Below, piece by piece: positions 38,835-45,088 of a stretch of 45,088 nt of DNA. The translations under genes were made by a program, and so were the position numbers. The stretch spans positions 1-45,088 of the forward strand of contig CAMKJS010000020.1 of NCBI GenBank assembly GCA_946413245.1. Direction: 5' to 3'. The number at the start of each line of letters is the position of its first letter. The first letter of the stretch is position 1. The notes under the pieces were generated by a model. It saw only the letters and a program-made list of their open reading frames with translations, searched no databases and had not been told where the DNA came from. This DNA is from an uncultured Clostridia bacterium (GTDB taxonomy: Bacteria > Bacillota > Clostridia > Christensenellales > Aristaeellaceae).

Positions 38835-39167
38835 TTACTCGAAAGAAAACCCACGCCTCAATATAGCGGCCCAGTTTTGCCTACTGTGCAGGAAACGAAC
38901 AATATAGACGCGCTTTTCGTCTTCTGCAATAACATAAAAGGCCAGATAGTCTTTTACCAGTGTCAGGCGAATCCCCCACGCATTCAAAACCGGATCTTCA
39001 ACCAGTGAGTACTTTTCGGGAAAGGCGGAGAGATCGATTATCTGCCTTTCCGCTTCATCCAGAAGGTCATCAGCAGCCTGAGGATTCATCAGGATGTGAT
39101 CGATATAATCCACGGCTTTATTCAGATCCGCGTCCGCTGCTGCAGTAATATAAATATCGTAATTCAT
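38835..39167 (-). CDS. ParE/RelE family toxin
   Basis: 110 residues with the RelE/ParE fold order: MNYDIYITAAADADL..AVDYI (first strand and helix), NPQAADDLLDEAERQI, FPEKYSLVEDP, GIRLTLVKDYLAFYVIAEDEKRVYIVRFLH, then SRQNWAAIL. Typical of RelE/ParE-superfamily toxins paired with Phd/YefM antitoxins; whether it cuts mRNA or poisons gyrase is not decided by the sequence. ATG 39167 overlaps the antitoxin stop by four bases, with AGGAG 6 bases upstream inside the antitoxin gene. Confidence 0.92.
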   Translation of the reverse strand: MNYDIYITAAADADLNKAVDYIDHILMNPQAADDLLDEAERQIIDLSAFPEKYSLVEDPVLNAWGIRLTLVKDYLAFYVIAEDEKRVYIVRFLHSRQNWAAILRRGFSFE

Positions 39168-39427
39168 CTTTTTCTCCTGGCCCTGATATCAGCCATTGCA
39201 GCAGAGAAAGGACGGGTGTTGCCGGATTGAATATCATCCAGACCTTTCTGAATCAAACCATACAATTCAAAACGGCCAAGCAGCTGTTCATATGCTTCTA
39301 TACTCATGACAGCCAGATCGCCTTTTCCGTTTTTTGTGATAAAAACAGGCTCTCCATACTGATGGCAGAATGTGGAGATCTCATTATAGCCATTGCGCAA
39401 ATCTGCACTGGAACGGATGGTAGGCAT
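39164..39427 (-). CDS. Phd/YefM family antitoxin
   Basis: 87 residues. MPTIRSSADLRNGYNEISTFCHQYGEPVFITKNGKGDLAVMSIEAYEQL is the dimeric DNA-binding Phd/YefM domain; the C-terminal 35 residues (LIQKGLDDIQSGNTRPF...) would wrap the toxin. The start is ATG 39427 with GGGAGGG 9 bases upstream; a 29-codon extension upstream overlaps the promoter and is rejected. It should repress its own operon through the palindrome at 39451-39477. Confidence 0.93.
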   Translation of the reverse strand: MPTIRSSADLRNGYNEISTFCHQYGEPVFITKNGKGDLAVMSIEAYEQLLGRFELYGLIQKGLDDIQSGNTRPFSAAMADIRARRKR

Positions 39428-39450
39428 GTGTTCATCCCTCCCTTTCTTAA

Positions 39451-39486
39451 TAAAGAAATTATACCTTAATTTCTTTATATCGTCAA
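39451..39486 (-). promoter_or_regulatory. Promoter and palindromic operator of the Phd-ParE operon
   Basis: Minus strand TTGACG (39486-39481), 17-base spacer, TATAAT (39463-39458). A perfect 11-bp inverted repeat, TAAAGAAATTA / TAATTTCTTTA with a 5-base centre (39451-39461 and 39467-39477), covers the -10, as expected of an autorepressed TA operon. Confidence 0.8.
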
Positions 39487-39554
39487 TGCTGTTTCCAGCT
39501 TTTCCATATCCCAATCAGCGTACATATATCCGGTTCCCGGGAAAACAGTCGAAG

Positions 39555-41655: not shown

Positions 41656-41677
41656 CGCAGTACGGGAGGACATCAAC

Positions 41678-42058
41678 ATGAGCCGTTTCCCGAAAGAAAT
41701 AACTGAATATGGCATCCATTATACCCTGCATGGCGACTACTACTTTCCGGTTCTCGACCTCCCGGATTCTCCTCGGCAGACTATCGGCCGCTATGGCCGG
41801 ATGCGGAAAGCCTATCTGGAAGAGCATCGTCCCGGACTGTATGAACGGCTTCTTCTTTCCGGTAAGTTGTATGACCATCTGGCGGAAACAGATCAAGCCT
41901 GCCGGGATCGTATGGAACGGATAATCACCCGGATGGCCAAAGCTGAAGGAATCAACGAGCAGCTGAAAGCATCAGATCAGCCGGGGTGGATTTCCCGGAT
42001 GAACAGTATTCATCAACGTGCTGAGGAAATCATACTGGATGAATTGGTCTTTGCCTGA
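41678..42058 (+). CDS. tnpV: TnpV-type transposon-encoded protein
   Basis: 126 residues, the size and order of TnpV of clostridial integrative and transposable elements: KEITEYGIHYTLHGDYYFPVLDLP, IGRYGRMRKAYLEEHRPGLYERLLLSGKLYDHL, a helical RMERIITRMAKAEGINEQLKASD segment, and IHQRAEEIILDELVFA. Its biochemical role is not known; it marks mobile DNA. GGGAGG lies 8 bases before ATG 41678. A 39-base stretch of its 3' end is repeated at 44022-44060. It is followed by a good terminator. Confidence 0.9.
   Translation: MSRFPKEITEYGIHYTLHGDYYFPVLDLPDSPRQTIGRYGRMRKAYLEEHRPGLYERLLLSGKLYDHLAETDQACRDRMERIITRMAKAEGINEQLKASDQPGWISRMNSIHQRAEEIILDELVFA
41991..42029 (+). repeat. 39-bp direct repeat, left copy (inside tnpV)
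   Basis: Begins TTTCCCGGATGAACAG and ends GCTGAGGAAA. It recurs with one mismatch at 44022-44060, on the other side of the HipA-type module. Confidence 0.95.
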
Positions 42059-42270: not shown

Positions 42271-42301
42271 ACTTGACATTTATCAAGTATTTTGCTAACA
42301 T
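42271..42301 (+). promoter_or_regulatory. Promoter and candidate operator of the HipA-type module
   Basis: TTGACA (42273-42278), 17-base spacer, TAACAT (42296-42301). A perfect inverted repeat ACTTGA-CATTTA-TCAAGT (42271-42288) overlaps the -35 and is a likely binding site for the HTH protein encoded downstream. Confidence 0.7.
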
Positions 42302-42319
42302 AGAGCCCGTGGGAGGTGA

Positions 42320-43147
42320 ATGGCATTGAATCAAATCATTCATGAATTACAGGACATGACGCACCTCAGCTGGGCAAAGACGCGCAATTCGTCCGGTACG
42401 GCGGGTTCATTCCTGAAAGCGTATGAAGACGGAGTCGATGGGAAGACTTATTTCAAGCTGTCAAATTATGATGCCTGGAAAGGGATCATCGGCCATGAAT
42501 GCGTTAATGAAATCATAGTAGATCGCTTATTGTCGATCCTGGGCATCAACCACCTGCCTTATCAGTTGATCCATGCGAAGATCCTGATCGATCAGAAAGA
42601 ATATGAAACCTGGCTTTGCGCCTCCAAGGATTTCAAGCAGCATGGAGAAAGCAAAATCGCACTGGACGCATATTATCAAGCAGAGAGCTTGCCGAATGAA
42701 TCTCCCATGGATTTTTGCATCCGCTGCGGGTGGGAAAGCACAGTCTATGAGATGCTGGTCGTCGATTATCTGATTCTCAATCGTGACCGTCACGGCGCAA
42801 ATATGGAAGTTCTTCGGAACCAGCGGAAGAAAACCATCCGTCTGGCCCCTTTGTTTGATCACGGACTGTCACTGCTCAGCCGGTGTGAAAGCACCGAAGC
42901 CATGCTTCGGGAGGACGTTATGGCTGATAAGCCGGTCCAATGCTTTGTCGGTTCACGGTCATCATGGGAGAATCTCCGGTTGATCCCACGGGATCAGCGT
43001 CCTCCTTTGCATCCTTTGGCAGAGAATGACCGCGCAATTCTCCTGGAAGGTTTATCAGAAGCACTCGATCAGCAATGGCTGGACAGGATCTGGGAAATGA
43101 TTTGGAAGAGGTGGCAAGCGTATGAGGATCTTTGCAATCAAGGATGA
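42320..43147 (+). CDS. HipA-like serine/threonine kinase (HipT-type, lacking the N-subdomain)
   Basis: 275 residues. The kinase core of HipA toxins is present: a glycine/serine-rich SSGTAGSFLKAY loop (about 24-35), an ATP-lysine candidate in YFKLS (about 44-48), the catalytic-loop motif NRDRHGAN (154-161) and APLFDHGLSLL with the metal aspartate (180). HipA proteins of about 440 residues carry an N-terminal subdomain; here it is absent, and a similar segment appears at the start of the next protein. HipA/HipT kinases phosphorylate aminoacyl-tRNA synthetases. The start at 42320 is only 3 bases after GGAGG; an in-frame TTG at 42326 is better spaced. The gene overlaps the next one by 26 bases. 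Confidence 0.82.
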   Translation: MALNQIIHELQDMTHLSWAKTRNSSGTAGSFLKAYEDGVDGKTYFKLSNYDAWKGIIGHECVNEIIVDRLLSILGINHLPYQLIHAKILIDQKEYETWLCASKDFKQHGESKIALDAYYQAESLPNESPMDFCIRCGWESTVYEMLVVDYLILNRDRHGANMEVLRNQRKKTIRLAPLFDHGLSLLSRCESTEAMLREDVMADKPVQCFVGSRSSWENLRLIPRDQRPPLHPLAENDRAILLEGLSEALDQQWLDRIWEMIWKRWQAYEDLCNQG

Positions 43148-43940
43148 TACGCTTTCCCAAAAGAGCGTATTGGGATATCTGATCTATTACGAAAACGCGA
43201 AAGCATTCTATATTGAACTGCCGGACGACGCCGATCCCTGGGAAACGCCACTTTTGCTGTCCTCGTTCGTAAAACGCGGCGAGCGCTCCGTCAGCAGCTA
43301 TTGGAGCCGTTTATGGGTGCAGCAGCGTATTATTCCCCGGGACAGACAGAATATCGGCCAGGTTCTGAAGGAAAACGGGCTCAAAGAATATGACGAGTTT
43401 CAAATGCTGATGCTGACCATGGGGCGATGCGCGCAGGATGAATGCTATCTTGAAGAAATAAACACCGCAGAACTGCCCCCGTTGCTGGTGAATCGCTGGA
43501 AGACCAAGATCGAGGACGTTGTTCCTCTCAAAGGCTTTCGCTTACTTGTTTTCTTCCGCAATGGGGAAGTCAAAATCTGTGACGCGGCAAAGCATACGAC
43601 AGATCACGTGGAATGTCAGCCTTATGTCGCCCAAGAGAAGCGTTTCCATGCGGTGGAAGTTCAACCCGATGGATATGGAGTGATGTGGAGTGATCGGGCA
43701 ATGATTTCCGACCGTGAACTATACGAAAAAAGCGAAAACATTCCGCTTTCGCTGGAAGATTTCATTGGTTTTGTACAGCACAGGATTGTGAATGCGAACG
43801 AAGCATGTCAGCTTCTGGGATGCAGCCGTCAAAACATTGATGATCTTATGAAGCGGGATAAGCTGCATCCCATTCGTAAGGATGCCAAATACAAACTGTT
43901 CCTCAAAAGTGAAATCATGCAGCGAAGAAAGCAACAATAA
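43122..43940 (+). CDS. Three-part partner protein: HipS-like segment, DUF2442, HTH
   Basis: 272 residues. Residues 1 to about 112 resemble the N-subdomain of HipA (VLGYLIYYENAKAFYIELP, WETPLLLSSFVKRG, RIIPRDRQNI, LKEYDEFQML, GRCAQDE), i.e. HipS. Residues about 128-203 look like DUF2442 (KIEDVVPLKGFRLLVFFRNG, FHAVEVQPDGYGVMW, RELYEKS). Residues about 219-268 form an excisionase/MerR-like winged HTH (NANEACQLLGCSRQNIDDLMKRDKLHPIRK). It would neutralise the kinase encoded upstream and bind DNA as the repressor, uniting the HipS and HipB roles. Start with GAGGTGG about 8 bases upstream, inside the kinase gene. Domain calls are by motif; the DUF2442 match is the least certain. Confidence 0.72.
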   Translation: MRIFAIKDDTLSQKSVLGYLIYYENAKAFYIELPDDADPWETPLLLSSFVKRGERSVSSYWSRLWVQQRIIPRDRQNIGQVLKENGLKEYDEFQMLMLTMGRCAQDECYLEEINTAELPPLLVNRWKTKIEDVVPLKGFRLLVFFRNGEVKICDAAKHTTDHVECQPYVAQEKRFHAVEVQPDGYGVMWSDRAMISDRELYEKSENIPLSLEDFIGFVQHRIVNANEACQLLGCSRQNIDDLMKRDKLHPIRKDAKYKLFLKSEIMQRRKQQ

Positions 43941-43948
43941 CTAAAGTC

Positions 43949-43990
43949 AGCGCCGGAACCGACCCTCGTTTTCGGCGCTAACTCGTTTTT
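43949..43990 (+). terminator. Candidate terminator of the HipA-type module
   Basis: AGCGCCG (43949-43955) pairs with CGGCGCT (43973-43979), then ACTCG and five T. A second arm TAGCGCC (44000-44006) could compete for the same CGGCGCTA strand. Confidence 0.6.
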
Positions 43991-44021
43991 ATTGCGACTT
44001 AGCGCCAAAATCGCTTATGGG

Positions 44022-44060
44022 TTTCCCGGATCAACAGTATTCATCAACGTGCTGAGGAAA
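44022..44060 (+). repeat. 39-bp direct repeat, right copy (tnpV fragment)
   Basis: Matches 41991-42029 at 38 of 39 positions; it is a piece of a second tnpV, cut on both sides. It is preceded by TTTTTATTGCGACTTAG (43986-44002), which resembles TTTTTAATTGCAACTTAG after tnpV (42088-42105). Confidence 0.95.
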
Positions 44061-44066
44061 GTCAGG

Positions 44067-44325
44067 ACCACCACTTCAAGTGGTGGTTTGTTAACGCCCC
44101 TATAAGGGGCAAATACGTGCAACCGCCTAAAGGCGGGGTGCCAAAAGCTTGTTACTGGCAGCCTCTTAAAGAGGCTACTTTGTACTTCGAGCTTCCTTGT
44201 ATGACTCTTCTTCCTGCTCCTGGATATACTTACGTATCGTCGCCTCATCCACGTTTCTGATTGTCGATACGTAATATCCTCGAGCCCAGAAGTCCCGCTC
44301 AAACTTCTCCCCACCATAGGTGGGG
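44067..44325. repeat. Series of five short hairpins around an IS200 remnant
   Basis: Perfect stems with short A/T-rich loops lie at 44067-44087 (ACCACCAC/GTGGTGGT), 44096-44110 (GCCCC/GGGGC), 44123-44136 (CCGCC/GGCGG), 44160-44176 (AGCCTC/GAGGCT) and 44309-44325 (CCCCACC/GGTGGGG). The last two border the TnpA fragment at 44175-44309 exactly. IS200/IS605 elements use subterminal hairpins at their ends, but one per end, not five. Confidence 0.85.
44175..44309 (-). pseudogene. tnpA: C-terminal remnant of IS200/IS605 TnpA transposase
   Basis: 44 codons and a stop: EKFERDFWARGYYVSTIRNV, then DEATIRKYIQEQEEE and a short tail. This is the characteristic C-terminus of the single-strand Y1 transposase TnpA of IS200/IS605. 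The catalytic HUH and tyrosine parts are missing, so the copy is dead. It begins and ends at hairpins of the surrounding series and lies beside the tnpV fragment. Confidence 0.85.
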
Positions 44326-44336
44326 GATTAAGGATA

Positions 44337-45088
44337 TCATTCATAATACGCTACTGCGATCCCACCAATATGCTTGGCAATCTCACGTCCAATGATTAAG
44401 CTGACCAGAAGTTTTCCATCCATATACAAACCAAGCAATGCTATTACATCTGAATAACGAAAGTTGAAGTCTTCTGCAGATATTCCCGTTGTTTTTCTCT
44501 CATTCCAGAATGTGCTTATATAATTATCAGTTGTTCTGGCATTATACCCGATGGCCGCAAAGCTCGTAGGTATTGGATGTTCAATTATCACCTTTGAGTC
44601 ATACTTGATGCGGCGTTTCAGTTCATCTACAGTCTCTTGCAGAACTTTTAATTCAATTCCGGATGATAAGCAATAATCCACAACTGCTCGCATCGTCTCA
44701 TATCGTTGCTTTCCCTGGAGGTTGAACAAACGATACAATATCGATGTATCCAGATACAAGGTTAACCCTTTCAAGGCAGATAGTAGATGCTGCTTTGTTT
44801 TTTCGTTTACAACCATTGAAAGGTAATGGATGGTTTTCTTAAACTGAAGCAAAAGGAATGATTGCTGTTCTGAGGTAAAATCTCTCGTAAACAACCCTGT
44901 TAAAAATGTTTGTATTGCCGATTTGTGTTGAGATGAAACATTTTCCATAACTTCATAAGCTATGGCTTCTGCTTTAGCTTCATCATACTCTTTTTTCCCG
45001 GCGATTAGACTATAGCAGTCCGCTCCATGTGTTAAGCTTCCTGTATAATACAAACTGACTGGTGAGGAGGCGGTCAATTGCAAAGGAA
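44337..45088 (-). CDS. PIN-like domain protein, partial (runs off the right edge)
   Basis: At least 250 codons, open to the window end; the true start lies outside. A central segment GLTLYLDTSILYRLFNL, later ETVDELKRRI and RYSDVIALLGLY, suggests a PIN-type nuclease fold with acidic residues at the expected places (D in YLDTS, E in ETVDEL, D in YSDV). Flanking parts are helical and unrecognised. The base composition is visibly lower in GC than the rest of the window, consistent with transfer. It ends IGGIAVAYYE-stop, 12 bases from the IS200-type hairpin at 44309-44325, so the C-terminus may have been altered by the insertion. It could belong to a longer defence-type protein. Confidence 0.55.
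   Translation of the reverse strand, partial: PLQLTASSPVSLYYTGSLTHGADCYSLIAGKKEYDEAKAEAIAYEVMENVSSQHKSAIQTFLTGLFTRDFTSEQQSFLLLQFKKTIHYLSMVVNEKTKQHLLSALKGLTLYLDTSILYRLFNLQGKQRYETMRAVVDYCLSSGIELKVLQETVDELKRRIKYDSKVIIEHPIPTSFAAIGYNARTTDNYISTFWNERKTTGISAEDFNFRYSDVIALLGLYMDGKLLVSLIIGREIAKHIGGIAVAYYE

Follow-up and report, generated by a model that had tools for sequence, protein, structure and literature searches.

A kinase-first HipA-like gene pair from a Clostridia genome with a predicted antitoxin that joins HipS-like, DUF2442 and helix-turn-helix domains

In HipBST systems, HipS is the antitoxin and HipB is the repressor. The window analysed here, the whole stretch of 45,088 nucleotides, raises the question of whether these two roles can reside in one polypeptide, as it carries a module of two overlapping plus-strand genes, A encoding a kinase and then B encoding its partner. 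We propose that the module is probably a two-gene, kinase-type (HipA-like) type II toxin-antitoxin (TA) system with a chimeric antitoxin-repressor. The source genome consists of 134 contigs; the nearest public copies are found in Clostridia/Clostridiales MAGs with kinases 97-99% identical, and one near copy (L007) originates from sheep duodenum. The features of the module are as follows.

42272..42287, strand not applicable: operator-like palindrome CTTGACATTTATCAAG (CTTG-N8-CAAG), overlapping the -35
42273..42301, plus: candidate sigma-70-type promoter, TTGACA-17-TAACAT with extended -10 TG, consensus match 10/12
42320..43147, plus: gene A, HipA-type kinase core without N-subdomain, 275 aa, predicted toxin
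42383..42418, plus: Gly-rich loop RNSSGTAGSFLK with conserved Ser24, a possible autophosphorylation site
42779..42802, plus: catalytic loop NRDRHGAN
42845..42865, plus: Mg-binding motif APLFDHG
43122..43147, plus: overlap of genes A and B, 26 nt
43122..43940, plus: gene B, three-domain partner, 272 aa, predicted antitoxin and autorepressor
43122..43463, plus: HipS-like domain, residues 1-114
43335..43352, plus: PxxRQN motif, close to where E. coli HipS has its inhibitory Trp65 (register +/- one residue)
43500..43742, plus: DUF2442 domain, residues 127-207
43776..43937, plus: MerR/excisionase-type HTH, residues 219-272 (HTH_17; PHROG 4691 excisionase, E 9.3e-16)
43945..43990, plus: strong hairpin followed by a T-run, likely operon terminator (-20.4 kcal/mol, z -4.05)

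The full palindrome at the promoter reads TACTTGA-N6-TCAAGTA, with CTTGACATTTATCAAG as its core. The promoter was assigned purely by consensus match, and the region yields three such sites against 2.8 expected. The stability of the terminator hairpin was reached by none of 200 shuffles.

Modelling of the gene A product suggests a HipA-fold core in which the Hip motifs are present and the N-subdomain is absent. In the Gly-rich loop, Ser24 is conserved in 34 of 37 kinases and G26, G29 and K33 in all 37 each; residues 22-29 of this loop have low pLDDT in the model, and Ser24 may be autophosphorylated. The kinase of one relative, L058, has lost the HGAN residues, its catalytic loop having decayed.

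The original prediction placed a HipS-like segment, a DUF2442 domain and an excisionase-type HTH in one protein encoded behind the kinase gene, and this arrangement is borne out. It had also allowed that the N-terminal segment might show no match to the HipA N-subdomain; in the models, residues 1-114 of B fit the HipA N-subdomain/HipS fold, which is that of the hipBST antitoxin. Homology to hipBST HipS could not be demonstrated from sequence: a profile comparison of the domain with eight clostridial HipS/HipA N-domains fell short of significance (hhalign E 0.071, probability 0.8%), and a Foldseek search on its own returned nothing for B at or below E 0.001. Since the direct sequence comparison is not significant, the link of B to HipS is drawn from the fold match together with a bridge through HipN of L142, a HipS-HIRAN protein that matches Couple_hipA (E 1.9e-6) and HIRAN (E 1.4e-14) of Pfam and is weakly matched by the HipS-like-domain profile of B (E 0.0049); a second HipN, L150, is poor on both (E 0.92 with the B-domain profile, E 0.055 with Couple_hipA). 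Searched against 985 ORFs, the B-domain profile also picks up single-chain kinases in their N-terminal region (L097, E 5.6e-6; L147, E 4.3e-5) as well as antitoxins from related modules (L126, E 3.3e-6; L145, E 1.3e-5). With an E of at most 0.01, the PADLOC PDC-M03B profile matches the HipS-like part in 38 of the 41 partners. A profile search of B against PDB sequences returned nothing useful (best E 0.43), an NCBIfam search of the module gave zero matches, and HIRAN was found neither in B at E 1 nor in the 41 partners at E 0.1. The B of L041 (4788-5747) is 320 aa long and has about 45 extra residues inserted around position 138, where DUF2442 starts.

HipS is described as blocking HipT in the HipBST systems of both E. 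coli and Legionella (PMC10627512, PMC9325769); in the former, Trp65 of HipS wedges by the Gly-rich loop of HipT (PMC10627512), and in the latter, HipS binding converts the P-loop to a helix (PMC9325769). In the partner alignment (A1, including six HipS-only rows), P72, R75 and Q76 of B are invariant in 41/41 partners, and no partner (0/41) has an aromatic residue at position 74 or 75, the place of E. coli HipS Trp65. A Trp65-type wedge at this place of B was rejected, residue 74 being D, S, G or E and Arg75 invariant; as Trp65 has no aromatic counterpart in B, the blocking contact must differ from that of E. coli HipS. The helix before this place carries Trp61 in 38 and Trp65 (B numbering) in 39 of the 41 partners.

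We infer the following mechanism. The short Ser/Thr kinase A would be the toxin, phosphorylating an essential target and thereby arresting growth. The HipS-like domain of B would dock on the kinase in the place of the missing N-subdomain, holding the Gly-rich loop and the ATP site inactive in a HipS-type block through the PxxRQN segment, and the DUF2442-HTH half of B would dimerise, bind the CTTGWCRTAYGWCAAG operator at the promoter and repress the operon. As B would be antitoxin and repressor at once, its loss would release the kinase and lift the repression of the operon at the same time. If this is true, a single protein can serve as both HipS antitoxin and autorepressor in a Hip kinase module, having arisen by the addition of a DUF2442-HTH unit like those that serve DUF4160 toxins elsewhere. 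The family would then contain a natural control in the contrast between HipS-only relatives, which lack the operator, and HTH-bearing relatives, which have it, making testable both the contribution of DUF2442, a little-studied antitoxin domain, and the block of a kinase by a HipS without a Trp wedge.

The distribution of the module was followed by a pattern scan across a collection of 84,980 species, a scan limited in reach to close relatives, which gave 78 pattern matches at 71 loci; loci from further searches, viral contigs among them, are outside this count. A kinase was taken as intact when phmmer gave E <1e-40 and a start codon lay near the expected place, a rule passed by 57 of the 71 loci, including L009 (contig cut at kinase residue 12) and L058 with its decayed catalytic loop. 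The remaining 14 comprise kinases cut by a contig end (L015, L060, L061), a kinase beyond the fetched stretch (L069), gutted kinases (L062, L067, L068, L070, L071), loci with both genes broken (L063, L072) and loci with a kinase fragment only (L064-L066, L066 at a contig end). Kinase homologues mostly without a partner had been named as an outcome that would speak against the module; in all 56 testable loci with an intact kinase, B lies beside it and overlaps its end, the 57th (L006) stopping at a contig end. The two genes overlap by 26 nt in 36 of the 56 homologous pairs and by 23 nt in nine. The partner is a long B (>200 aa) in 47 of these loci, among them L004 with a broken frame near residue 212 and L005 cut by its contig, HipS alone in eight (L050-L057, 111-113 aa), and contig-cut in one (L029). 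No neighbour family (ORFs of at least 90 aa) is common to more than 3 of 52 loci, some of which have short flanks, and the unit is thus these two genes.

Decay of the module is one-sided. B is intact beside a gutted kinase in L062 (C-terminal half left), L068 (34 residues left), and L070 and L071 (internal deletion), and in the HipS-only L067 an intact HipS stands with a partial kinase, while no intact kinase with a lost HipS domain was seen among the loci examined for decay. This is the pattern that a toxin with its antitoxin would give, although B is not always the last part lost, as an N-terminal kinase fragment is kept and B is gone in L064 and L065. Every computable dN/dS value of 14 pairs is at most 0.29, except 0.59 for the HTH at dS 0.02, many values being incomputable because dS is saturated; judged by these ratios, the module is under purifying selection. 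Mobile records include two weak phage matches and one good plasmid match.

The palindrome over the -35 was earlier thought to fit autoregulation, and its distribution agrees with this. Forty-seven non-redundant loci, the window among them, were compared, all with kinases <95% identical and an upstream stretch of at least 150 nt. Of the 40 whose B bears an HTH, 34 have CTTG-N8-CAAG in the 150 nt preceding the kinase, as do 0/7 HipS-only loci and 20 of 7366 windows of 150 nt drawn at random from these loci; with one mismatch allowed, the figures are 36/40, 0/7 and 317/7366, respectively. Common descent of the loci means that these counts are not independent trials. The consensus of 21 distinct sites is CTTGWCRTAYGWCAAG; the site of the window itself is asymmetric. 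Symmetric changes in both arms around the same core are seen in L010 and L049 (both outer bases), and likewise in the more distant L124. Eight of the 40 HTH-bearing loci have paired operators spaced 32-33 nt apart, which argues that the palindrome is no by-product of the -35. No operator lies within 150 nt upstream at L041 and L058 despite their HTH-bearing B, and the operator is retained in L068, L070 and L071, where the kinase is gutted. Together with linkage and one-sided decay, the operator gives only indirect support to a type II TA system.

The same data bear on a different arrangement, in which the kinase modifies B, a transcription factor, so that phosphorylated B sets promoter activity and there is no growth-arresting toxin. 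Co-encoding of a kinase with a repressor and the good conservation of HTH and operator would suit this, but the HipS-only forms (8/56 loci) keep the pair without an HTH, placing the core of the module in kinase plus HipS; moreover, B often stays where the kinase is gutted, and no further gene is conserved beside the module. We therefore consider a mere modifier role for the kinase quite improbable and prefer its role as a toxin held by B.

How far the module departs from described systems was then a matter of comparison. Gerdes et al. 2021 describe ten hip organisations, including kinase-first hipJS and hipIN with a HipS-domain partner, and none there has DUF2442 (PMC8262856). The suggestion that the arrangement forms a separate class was accordingly set aside, given hipJS, hipIN and the other HTH-HipS fusions that exist; since L050-L057 carry kinase plus HipS alone and relatives carry XRE- or resolvase-HTH-HipS, we regard it as a variant within the hipJS/hipIN branch. 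Two traits of Gerdes clade XI, the HipA-fold core without N-subdomain and the kinase-first, HipS-partner-second order, are found in the window, and members of the DUF2442-HTH family may be among the HipJ entries of that study. The hipJS systems share with the window a short kinase core without N-subdomain, encoded first, and a HipS-domain partner downstream, the form of L050-L057; their partner is HipS alone, a trait of L050-L057 and L125 and not of the window, whose partner adds DUF2442 and HTH and whose promoter adds the operator. By content, hipIN corresponds to PADLOC PDC-M03, which is unmentioned in open PMC papers, and the proteins of L142 match PDC-M03A and PDC-M03B at E 3.8e-132 and 9.6e-106. 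The kinase-first order and a HipS-like N-terminus of a longer partner are common to hipIN and the window, whereas the C-terminal half of the partner is HIRAN in hipIN (L142, L150) and DUF2442-HTH here. Identity with PDC-M03 was rejected because the partner lacks HIRAN, although the HipS-like part and the kinase are related.

The hipBST systems of E. coli O127 and Legionella likewise have a HipS-fold antitoxin, a kinase without N-subdomain and DNA-binding autoregulation within the operon, but they consist of three genes in the order B-S-T with a separate HipB, whereas the window has two genes with the HTH inside the partner; the Trp65 difference has been described above. The hipBA trait of a kinase with its own N-subdomain and a separate HTH antitoxin is absent in the window. 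Similar in composition are modules in which HTH-HipS accompanies a short Hip kinase (L145 and L100 with XRE, L069 with resolvase HTH_7), merging HipS-like and HTH parts as B does; in these the antitoxin gene is first, the HTH is N-terminal and DUF2442 is lacking. In open PMC papers, DUF2442 appears together with HipA only in a table passage of a TA survey.

DUF2442 was initially considered to have no explained role in toxin neutralisation, a statement that cannot be kept, since DUF2442 proteins are described as antitoxins of DUF4160 toxins (PMC8198452, PMC12724237). In dhiTA of Dickeya, the toxin inhibits growth, toxin plus antitoxin does not, and the antitoxin autorepresses (PMC8198452); in a Thermus plasmid pair, the second ORF, which is DUF2442 by the order given, was undeletable while the first stayed (PMC12724237). 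The DUF2442 fold is that of NE0471/2auw. The genome of the window itself encodes DUF4160 with DUF2442-XRE HTH (L184, G000:C48) and DUF4160 with DUF2442 (L185, G000:C51), both toxin first. Such dhiTA-type pairs resemble the module in gene order, in having a DUF2442 antitoxin, fused to an HTH in L184, and in the self-repression of dhiTA; they differ in that the toxin is DUF4160 and not the Hip kinase that overlaps the partner gene here, that the HipS domain is absent, and that the HTH of L184 is XRE-type versus MerR/excisionase-type in B. We think it most likely that DUF2442 serves here as a scaffold for dimerisation or DNA binding and arrived with its HTH.

Alternatively, the DUF2442 half could still function as an antitoxin in its own right, B then neutralising DUF4160 toxins of the same cell besides its own kinase, an idea to which the antitoxin role in dhiTA (PMC8198452), the pairs L184 and L185 in the same genome, and the match of the A5 profile (second half of B) to the DUF2442 protein of C48 (E 2.9e-6) lend some appeal. 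Both of these DUF4160 genes, however, have DUF2442 partners of their own, no DUF4160 ORF was found in the window by phmmer with the two proteins, and the same search found one beside the module among 72 loci only at L063, where kinase and B are broken; a second antitoxin function is hence very doubtful. The DUF4160-like ORF of L063 (near 2641, plus strand) matches the L184 protein at E 5.5e-7 and precedes the broken module copy by about 1.3 kb. A more elaborate proposal, that the antitoxin is a chimera of two unrelated TA families whose DUF2442 is an active sensor or second antitoxin deciding kinase release, making a three-input switch of kinase, operator, and DUF2442 ligand or DUF4160 toxin, is speculative and seems unlikely to us.

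Among 32 loci DUF2442 is the fastest-changing domain, with a mean protein distance of 0.656 versus 0.518 for the HTH, 0.416 for the kinase and 0.405 for HipS; its dN/dS is 0.05-0.29 where computable, indicating purifying selection. The DUF2442-HTH half is clearly closer than kinase and HipS in six pairs among 47 loci, and in the pairs of L025, L028, L030 and L032 it is 97-100% identical against 83-88% for the kinase (HipS, 84-94%), which suggests that this half was swapped as a unit. Rapid change and apparent exchange would suit an abortive-infection switch, in which DUF2442 senses a phage product, B releases the kinase and the infected cell arrests, the module being selected for defence and not for self-maintenance. 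The nearest catalogued two-gene relatives, PDC-M03A/B, matched by L142, are listed phage-defence candidates, and Gerdes et al. proposed a similar role for hipIN and HipR (PMC8262856). Yet the window proteins resemble PDC-M03 in part only, DUF2442 is a plain antitoxin elsewhere, only two viral contigs with the module were found, and the neighbour families, recurring in at most 3 of 52 loci, form no defence island. Defence remains conceivable on this balance, but we hold it to be the less probable purpose of what we read as a self-maintaining kinase toxin and its antitoxin-repressor.

Relatives of the two genes occur in several architectures: kinase plus HipS (L050-L057, L125), kinase plus HipS-HIRAN (L142, L150), HipS first and then kinase (L126, L136), XRE-HipS plus kinase (L145, L100), resolvase-HTH-HipS plus kinase (L069, 3304-4702, within a few kb of the module) and single-chain HipS-kinase (L097, L101, L130). 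A 464-aa single chain at L147 (532-1926) joins an XRE HTH, a HipS-like part and a kinase, and is possibly a self-inhibited all-in-one form. The single chains of L097, L101, L130 and L147 argue that HipS-like domain and kinase act together, and the different HTHs and opposite gene orders suggest that HipS was fused to DNA-binding domains more than once. A phylogeny of 57 kinases, which contains the HipN-linked L142/L150 but no named HipJ sequence, unites the window family and L125 (92%) and places them, with 94% support, next to the HTH-HipS/HipS-first group (itself 100%). L142/L150 branch further out, and all of these are separate from HipT/HipA (98%). The HTH-bearing L058 falls outside the HipS-only clade (support 77-81), which would fit a loss of DUF2442-HTH in L050-L057 as well as two gains. 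The kinases of L132, L134 and L151 are CtkA-like by eye and follow a protein of 157-175 aa without HipS-like match, which in L151 has an HTH by Pfam; this XRE protein plus kinase group may be a further Hip-type module in Firmicutes.

Other Hip genes lie close to some copies. A second Hip module of hipST type, with a 109-aa HipS bearing PEGW and a 324-aa HipT-like kinase, stands directly behind a 99% identical module copy in L187 (G009:C33, 2086-3365), and longer Hip kinases lie a few kb from the module in L017 (6139-7470) and L026 (5202-6659), the latter an HTH-HipS-kinase single chain by eye.

In the window, a tnpV gene (41663-42058; PF14198, E 1.5e-42) ends just upstream of the module, and a 43-nt copy of its tail (95%) lies just downstream at 44018-44060, as also in L003 and L007, hinting that the module was inserted as a cassette in a transposon-linked site. 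By eye, we take the genes at 38835-39514 on the minus strand to encode a Phd-like antitoxin of 116 aa followed by a ParE/RelE-like toxin of 110 aa, and 44060-44340, with short repeats and a transposase C-terminus, is presumably the remnant of an IS200/IS605-type element.
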